Assembly: GCA_937941455.1 (NCBI GenBank)
Contig: CALDHM010000021.1
Coordinates: 1-64,000, forward strand
Length of the DNA: 64,000 nucleotides
From: an uncultured Pirellulaceae bacterium
GTDB lineage: Bacteria > Planctomycetota > Planctomycetia > Pirellulales > Pirellulaceae
Direction of reading: 5' to 3'
The notes beneath the pieces are model-generated. The model searched no databases. It worked only from the letters and a program-made list of their open reading frames with translations, and had not been told where the DNA came from. The position numbers and the translations under genes are program-made. Below, in pieces: positions 57,757-59,596 of this stretch (within the stretch, counting starts at the first letter, position 1; every line of letters starts with the position of its first letter).

Positions 57757-59596
57757 ATGTCGGATTATGCAAATACGCCTTATACCGTTGTCGCGCGCCG
57801 CTATCGCCCCCAGGCCTTTTCGGAATTAGTAGGCCAACCGCATGTAATTACGGCCTTGACCAATGCCATCGAGCAGCACCGCGTCGGGCACGCCTATTTG
57901 TTCACGGGTGCTAGGGGCGTCGGGAAGACATCTACGGCTCGCATTTTCGCGAAGTGCTTGAATTGCCGGGAGGGGCCGACGACGACCCCCTGCAATGAAT
58001 GCGACGTTTGCCAATCGGTCGCCGCCGGAGAAGACGTGGATGTCCTCGAAATCGACGGAGCCAGCAACCGCGGCATCGACGAGATTCGGCAGTTGCGCTC
58101 CAACGTGAATATCCGGCCGAGCCGCTGCCGCTTCAAAATTTACATCATTGACGAAGTCCACATGCTGACGACGCCGGCCTTCAATGCGCTGCTCAAGACG
58201 CTGGAGGAGCCCCCCCCGCACGTCAAATTTCTGTTTTGCACCACTGACCCCCAAAAAATTCCTATCACGGTGCTGTCTCGCTGCCAGCGATTCGACTTCG
58301 CGCCCGTCGAGGCGGACGAAATTTCCGGACGCTTACGAGAAATCGCCCAGGCGGAAGGCGTTGAAGCGGATGACGAAGCCCTCGCCCTGATCGCTCGGCG
58401 GGCCAATGGATCGATGCGCGACAGCCAATCCTTACTCGAGCAAATCCTTTCATTCGGCGATAAAAAAATCACAGTCAGCGACGTGCATCAACTTTTAGGC
58501 ACGGCCGACCTCAGTCGCGTCACCTCGATCATGCGAGCAATGCTCGACAAAAACTTGGCGACGGTACTCGCGGAAATCGATGCAACCATTAAGTCGGGAA
58601 CCGATGTCGGTCAGCTGTCCCAACAATTAGTAGGCTACTTGCGCGACATGATGGCCACCAAGGCCGGCTGCGATACGAAGTTCTTACTGACTGTGGCCGG
58701 CGCTGAAACCAACTCGATGGTGGAGTTGACGCGGCGAACCGATCTGAACACGATCCTATCCATGCTGCAAATTTTGGATCAAGCGATGACACGCATGCAG
58801 CACAGCCACCATAGCCGAGTACTGCTCGAGGCAGCCGCGCTGCGATGTTGCGAATTGGAAAGCTTGCAAGTGATCGCTGATTTGTTGAGCGGCGTGGCGA
58901 GCCCAGCAGCAGGCAAGGCCGCGACGTCCGCCAGCCCCACCAGTCCGCCGCCGAGCCAAATCCAGCCGAGTCCCCCGCCAGACGTCGATTCAAAAAAAAA
59001 AAGTTGATTCCAACCTAGACCAACCTTCCCGCACGAGCGCCGAGAGAGAATCTGCCGCTCGCGAAACTCCCGTCGTCGCTCCCTTGTCTCTGTTATCAGC
59101 AGGATGTGCCACGGTAGCCGCCATTACGATCTACGATTCGGCTGCCGGCGAGGAGAGGACAACAACGGCAAATCAGCCCGTCGCGGTCAACGATGTCGCG
59201 GCGAACTCGCCCATCGACATCCGGGAGGCATGGCGGGCAACGCTGGATGAGGTAGGAAGCATGACGGCCGATTTCGCGGCCGATTTTACGGCGGTCCAGG
59301 ACCTCGGGAACGGACACATCCGGGTCGTTTTGCGCGAAAGTTACAATGCAACCCTGTGCAATCGCATCGAGCGACGCTCGCGCTTCGAGGCGGTGTTGTG
59401 CAAGCGGCTCGGACGGCCCATCACGCTGGAATTCCTAGCTCAGCAAACGCGCGGGGATTCGGCCCACGAAGCCCCGCGAAAAATCTCCCGCCGTGACCGC
59501 ATTCGTGCCGCCGCACAGGATCCGTATGTCAAGGCGGCCCTCGAAATCTTTTCGGCCGAGATCACGGACGTGATCGAGAACGCACCAAAAAAATGA
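57757..59596 (+). CDS. dnaX: DNA polymerase III subunits gamma and tau, frame interrupted at A11
   Basis: DnaX is the clamp-loader ATPase. The N-terminal part reads RPQAFSELVGQ, Walker A GARGVGKT (51-58), four zinc Cys (C70, C79, C82, C85), Walker B IIDEVHML, and SRCQRFDF with the Arg finger. In frame 1 it stops at 59007 (416 residues; gamma-like) right after a run of 11 A (58992-59002). The frame one base later is open from the A-run through 59596 and encodes a tau C-terminal domain (EAWRATLDEVGSM, then YNATLCNRIERRSRFEAVLCKRLGRPITLEF, and DPYVKAALEIFSAEI). Losing one A, or gaining two, yields a 612-residue tau. Slippage is the likely cause; a sequencing error is possible. Confidence 0.87.
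58992..59002 (+). repeat. A11 run, presumed slippage site in dnaX
   Basis: Eleven A in a row at codons TCA-AAA-AAA-AAA-AGT. RNA polymerase slippage to 10 or 13 A would switch to the tau frame. The -1 frame closes at TAG 59016 (a few codons), so a simple -1 ribosomal shift would not make tau. Confidence 0.8.

Follow-up and report, generated by a model that had tools for sequence, protein, structure and literature searches.

A poly-A run conserved in planctomycete dnaX genes as a probable transcriptional-slippage site for gamma and tau

The dnaX locus and its A-run

The window analysed here is a stretch of 64,000 nucleotides from an uncultured Pirellulaceae bacterium (contig CALDHM010000021.1). 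It carries a dnaX gene whose two parts lie in different reading frames on either side of a run of eleven adenines, with the following features.

57757 to 59007, plus strand: 5' part of dnaX, domains I-III and the start of the linker; the 0-frame product is gamma, 416 aa (Pfam, TIGR02397)
58992 to 59002, plus strand: A11, the proposed slippage site; the sole exact A11 in the genome, at a run conserved in relatives
59005 to 59007, plus strand: TGA ending the 0 frame (gamma), five codons from the one that holds the first A of the run
59016 to 59018, plus strand: TAG at which the -1 frame, that of a 12-A mRNA, closes; this would make a further gamma-like end
59003 to 59596, plus strand: linker and C-terminal domain specific to tau, in the +1 frame; an mRNA with 10 A or 13 A would reach it
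59219 to 59593, plus strand: tau C-terminal domain, from alignment with the same-genus genome G002 (50% identity)

The run was read directly from the sequence, and in the 0 frame its surroundings are ...GAT TCA AAA AAA AAA AGT TGA. The plain frame starts at 57757 and comprises 416 codons up to the stop at 59005-59007, the +1 frame has no stop from the A-run until the TGA at 59594-59596, and the -1 frame is closed by the TAG at 59016-59018. Beyond the run, stops are thus met at 5 and 9 codons in two frames while the third continues for 201 codons. A preliminary description of this DNA had reported the A11, the 416-codon plain frame, the +1 frame open to 59596 and the -1 frame closed at 59016, and reading confirmed all of these coordinates; its tau of 612 aa likewise agrees with codon arithmetic, since 57757-59593 less one base makes 612 codons.

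The 5' part matches Pfam PF13177, PF22608 and PF12169 as well as TIGR02397 dnaX_nterm (E 1.6e-136). Against NCBIfam PRK14950 (585 positions), the first open reading frame covers positions 5-407 and the second 404-583 (E 1.2e-8), each half alone scoring under the model's whole-protein cut-off. Pfam gives the tau end a weak, sub-threshold match (DUF3646, E 0.032), and the best solved structure for it, E. coli tau (5fku, E 0.069), is too weak a match alone; a family tau-end profile that includes the window's own row detects it at E 4.2e-38. With AAA+ clamp-loader domains I-III, a tau C-terminal domain and the PRK14950 halves in order, the gene belongs to DnaX. The tau frame is conserved relative to G002 (pN 0.37, pS 0.77, 189 codons), a comparison limited to pN/pS as dS is saturated for this pair.

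The genome (G000) comprises 4,042,072 bases in 77 contigs and is 96% complete. The dnaX run is the single isolated A11 (11 A and no more, between other bases) in these 4,042,072 bases on both strands; runs of at least 9 A number 39 on either strand, including one A12. Each of the 38 other A9-A12 runs was inspected together with flanks of up to about 1.5 kb (longer where a few stretches were merged), and ten were followed through all frames. By a weak ORF criterion none shows a clear split of a long gene, although short open reading frames adjoin three of them (L273, L279, L300) and leave these ambiguous; general homopolymer damage of the assembly is, by the same weak criterion, not supported by the 38 runs. 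One A9 (L291, G000:C27, minus strand) lies in frame within a 335-aa ORF that by eye resembles an Obg GTPase, and the frame is intact. PF13177 matches two places in the genome, dnaX itself and C11:78280-78795, whose product we take to be delta-prime and which matches the DnaX query at E 9e-21 with 32% identity. No second dnaX was seen by this PF13177 search in the 96%-complete assembly and, since the other locus is weakly DnaX-like and read as delta-prime, there appears to be no other dnaX to supply tau.

Conservation of the run among relatives

Using the first 380 residues as query, dnaX was found in 181 of 199 same-family genomes at E <= 1e-60, and the sample for counting consists of 150 same-family loci including the window's own, hereafter the matches listed. 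Four loci (L044, L123, L130, L139) could not be read through the linker and were left out of the counts, as the contig ends in the linker or, in L130, the frame breaks near the contig end. The preliminary description had called for a check of A-run conservation in related genomes, and the run proved to be widely kept: a run of A9-A11 lies in the linker before the tau domain in 137 of the 146 readable same-family loci among the matches listed. By length these are 45 A9, 89 A10 and 3 A11 (n=137, among the matches listed), and in none of the 146 (again among the matches listed) is the longest run 7 or 8 A. With loci clustered on their N-terminal part at 80% identity, the run is present in 53 of 58 clusters among the matches listed. 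Runs of at least 9 A number only 4 to 67 per whole genome in 31 family genomes, so that chance is a very unlikely explanation for one at a fixed position.

Nine of the 146 same-family loci among the matches listed have no run of at least 9 A, and each of them has one long frame. Four come from a single genus (L029, L030, L041, L060) and the others are L031, L035, L055, L084 and L154; in L055 the longest run is A6. Because these loci keep the long frame, slippage-made gamma would not be indispensable in the family and gamma, if made there, would arise in another way.

Outside the family, A9 or A10 is present in 29 of 32 loci from another order of the class, and in all 29 the plain frame extends at least 159 codons from the run. 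A locus from another family in the window's order (L242) has no run. Among 15 planctomycete-named loci, 12 have A9 or A10, including Gemmata (L170) and three Phycisphaerae (L217, L221, L227), two are without a run (L161, L162) and one is unreadable (L195). In the phylum outside the class the run is patchy: 60 further loci were examined, 5 were unreadable, and a run of at least 9 A is present in 8 of 55.

Stop codons, phase and length of the run

Among the matches listed, the plain frame extends beyond the run in 133 of the 137 run-bearing loci, and the tau profile is found within that frame in 130 of these 133. In two of the remainder (L070, L149) the plain frame runs off the contig before the tau profile. 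In the third (L104) the plain frame passes the A10 for 409 nt and the tau domain lies in the +1 frame beyond (E 1.8e-26), so that either a second frameshift or a sequence error is placed downstream of the run and not at the run.

In the stop-codon test, codons were counted from the run to the first stop with the run read with one A more or one A fewer. With an added A, a stop follows within 10 codons in 122 of 133 loci, and with one A removed in 114 of 133, both among the matches listed; by comparison, 30-32% of control positions within these genes are closed within 10 codons per frame. Both shifted frames are closed within 15 codons in 123 of 133 loci (10 exceptions) and in 46 of 51 cluster representatives, again among the matches listed. 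The codon phase of the run is 1, 2 or 0 in 103, 26 and 8 loci respectively (among the matches listed). On a quick tree of the N-terminal part, in which many forks are weakly supported, the phase changed at least 12 times with run length staying at 9-11, and length changed at least 13 times among tau-in-frame loci, within 9-11. With its length held at 9-11 and its phase free, the run looks to be kept as DNA or RNA and not as peptide.

Loci with gamma in the plain frame

Gamma occupies the plain frame in 4 of the 137 run-bearing loci among the matches listed, namely the window, L017, L072 and L079, and the split state was reached at least four times on the same quick tree with its weak forks. 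L072 and L079 have A9 where their close sisters have A10. In all four split loci the tau domain is found in another frame by the family tau-end profile, which includes the window row. One added A restores tau in L017, L072 and L079; the window needs one A fewer or two more, and stands alone in this among the splits seen. In other planctomycete families, two loci (L365, L370) have a split dnaX with A10 in which an added A opens a tau-like frame, the tau-like matches being weak (E 1.2e-4 and 8.3e-5); these two resemble the splits described in 2013.

Proposed mechanism

The A-run of the window is, with high probability on this comparative evidence, a programmed transcriptional-slippage site of the Thermus-type design. 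RNA polymerase would copy the run into mRNAs with differing numbers of A, and the sequence 3' of the run would thereby be read in all three frames. Two of these frames would end within a few codons to give gamma, the clamp-loader core, and one would continue to give tau, the core together with the domain that binds the polymerase in known DnaX. In most relatives the unslipped mRNA would yield tau. In the window the unslipped A11 mRNA would yield gamma, an A12 mRNA would also end early, and tau would come from an A10 mRNA (-1) or an A13 mRNA (+2). The slippage, the two proteins and their ratio in the window dnaX are what we infer from sequence.

More tentatively, and at somewhat less than even confidence, the element could be a Planctomycetia-wide one that tolerates changes in run length: with all three frames fed by the polymerase, a one-A change in the template might cost neither protein, and lineages would flip between tau-in-frame and gamma-in-frame, the window representing a flip opposite to the published splits. 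Passages of PMC5574713 and PMC6260861 report that insertions outnumber deletions at A runs, by which A11 looks to be a poor tau template unless multiple insertions are frequent, and a template one A short should be easier to tolerate than one that is one A long. Passages of PMC6260861 also report that T runs provoke more slippage by E. coli polymerase than A runs do, and that multiple insertions predominate at the Thermus dnaX site in E. coli and similarly at a lacZ A11; a +2 product from A11 could hence be possible.

Alternative explanations

The preliminary description had named a homopolymer sequencing error as the main alternative. This is a proper alternative for the eleventh A and not for slippage itself, since a gene with A10 resembles its relatives and gamma by slippage would still be expected; the slippage element stands whether or not the eleventh A is real, and the role of the unslipped mRNA alone differs. 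In the error reading the genome would really carry A10, with tau encoded in the plain frame and gamma arising by slippage. It agrees with A10 and a plain frame open beyond the run in G001 and G002, the two same-genus genomes with a dnaX match (the other two have no full dnaX match), and with the removal of one A giving the window run the phase and length of G001. Among the matches listed A10 is also the most frequent length (89 of 137) and A11 the least frequent (3 of 137), the window direction is unlike the five other splits seen and unlike the -1 of the 17 splits in passages of PMC3711429, and the preponderance of insertions described above would let a run one A short be tolerated more easily. 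Against it, no long gene is clearly split at any of the 38 other A9-A12 runs in the assembly (by the weak ORF criterion), a 390-aa ORF of the same genome contains an A10 in frame, and in two further family loci (L102, L133) an A11 leads in frame into a long tau part. Run length also evolves, with the 13 or more changes noted among tau-in-frame loci, and the multiple insertions reported as predominant at the Thermus dnaX site in E. coli (PMC6260861) would provide the +2 product. On balance we lean slightly towards the eleventh A being real, an assembly or sequencing error being a serious contender at somewhat less than an even chance.

Programmed transcriptional slippage has also to be set against a ribosomal origin of one of the two products, by -1 frameshifting of the E. 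coli type, and against a true frameshift mutation, with tau lost from the window's lineage or the gene in decay there; both are very improbable. Although the run includes A_AAA_AAA, and A_AAA_AAG occurs in some relatives, the -1 frame would give a second gamma-like end at 59016 and never tau, and the preliminary description was right that an E. coli-type -1 ribosomal shift cannot make tau here. A -1 ribosomal shift needs stops in one shifted frame only, so that the early +1-frame stops that are also kept (114 of 133 within 10 codons, among the matches listed) count against it. Seven bases suffice for a ribosomal site, but the longest run is never 7-8 A among the matches listed, and both lysine tRNAs, tRNA-Lys(UUU) and tRNA-Lys(CUU), are present (30 of 43 tRNA loci read); passages of the review PMC5009743 treat two lysine tRNAs as possibly relevant to polymerase slippage in Thermus. 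As a set, 135 family loci lack E. coli-type stimulators: downstream hairpins are not in excess (61 of 135 exceed the control in stability, Wilcoxon p 0.27), nor are upstream Shine-Dalgarno-like motifs (10 of 135 against 6.9% in the control). A ribosomal -1 shift is thus unsupported by hairpins, Shine-Dalgarno-like motifs, run-length threshold, second-frame stops and tRNA-Lys content. Loss of tau would fit a plain frame that stops ahead of the tau domain, and eight loci from two other planctomycete families do have a short DnaX with no tau-like match. However, about 200 codons remain open after the run in the window, with a tau domain 50% identical to that of G002, the PF13177 search of the genome found no second dnaX, and both early stops are as near the run as in relatives.

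Comparison with known dnaX systems

The closest parallel is dnaX of Thermus thermophilus, where, in passages of PMC1088944 and PMC5009743, an A9-type run leads to tau in one frame and to gamma in two frames with nearby stops. The window likewise has a run of at least 9 A (A11) in the linker before the tau domain, and after the run one frame stays open while the other two soon stop. Where the two differ is in the unslipped product: this is tau in Thermus, where slippage has been measured according to the same passages, and gamma in the window, where slippage is deduced. The Thermus-type slippage put forward in the preliminary description gains strong support from the sequences of relatives in its design, but its likeness fails in the arrangement, as in Thermus and in 133 of 137 run-bearing loci (among the matches listed) the plain frame continues beyond the run, with gamma as the slipped product, and the window is reversed.

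A split dnaX is itself a kind already described in 2013, in passages of PMC3711429 (Antonov et al. 2013), which report 17 split dnaX genes, 12 with poly-A and nine of these with A10. Those splits and the window are alike in having two open reading frames, with gamma in the plain frame and tau by recoding. They differ in direction: all 17 are -1 at the DNA level, where one more A leads to tau, and the window with its A11 is +1. The window has two open reading frames with tau reached only via poly-A recoding, provided that the eleventh A is real, and it is L017, L072 and L079 that show the -1 direction. The passages of PMC3711429 name no planctomycete among split dnaX genes. In the open-licence literature, to which the search was confined, no report was found of planctomycete dnaX slippage, its conservation or a +1-direction split.

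Two further systems share features with the window. The E. coli dnaX -1 frameshift likewise uses an A-rich site to obtain both gamma and tau from a single gene, but it is ribosomal, has Shine-Dalgarno and hairpin stimulators and keeps tau in the plain frame (PMC3711429, PMC5009743). In Blochmannia (PMC3017870) dnaX has a frameshift in a poly-A tract, and slippage has been suggested to correct it, as it has for other homopolymer frameshifts; that tract is situated 3' of the gamma site, within the portion unique to tau, whereas the run of the window is conserved and marks the gamma/tau border.

Other dnaX arrangements in the phylum

Several planctomycete loci show arrangements of another kind. 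In four of the five family f10 loci read (L363, L364, L366, L371), dnaX is a short gamma-like ORF lacking an A-run, and a tau-like domain follows downstream in the -1 frame (E 1.6e-10 to 1.6e-5, own profile); the fifth (L375) has no match with the tau-end profile. By eye, a hairpin-like palindrome seems to come after the gamma stop in L364, L366 and L371. In family f10, tau is possibly a separate gene. Eight loci of families f20 and f4 (L359-L362, L367-L369, L372) have a short DnaX without an A-run, and the approximately 1.2-1.4 kb downstream yielded no tau-like domain; these possibly have a gamma-only DnaX. In a further locus (L358, genome G244) a short DnaX is followed by a weak tau-like match in the +1 frame (E 1.1e-5, best stretch 0.0023), with no A-run at the border.

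Significance

If the proposed slippage is true, slippage-made gamma would be located in a large and partly cultivable group of bacteria. The comparative signature is clean, with length held at 9-11, phase free and stops in both shifted frames. Natural one-base variants within one genus (L072/L085 and L079/L081) could be used to test how far a replisome gene tolerates a flip of frame. For annotators, such split dnaX genes should not be counted as pseudogenes.
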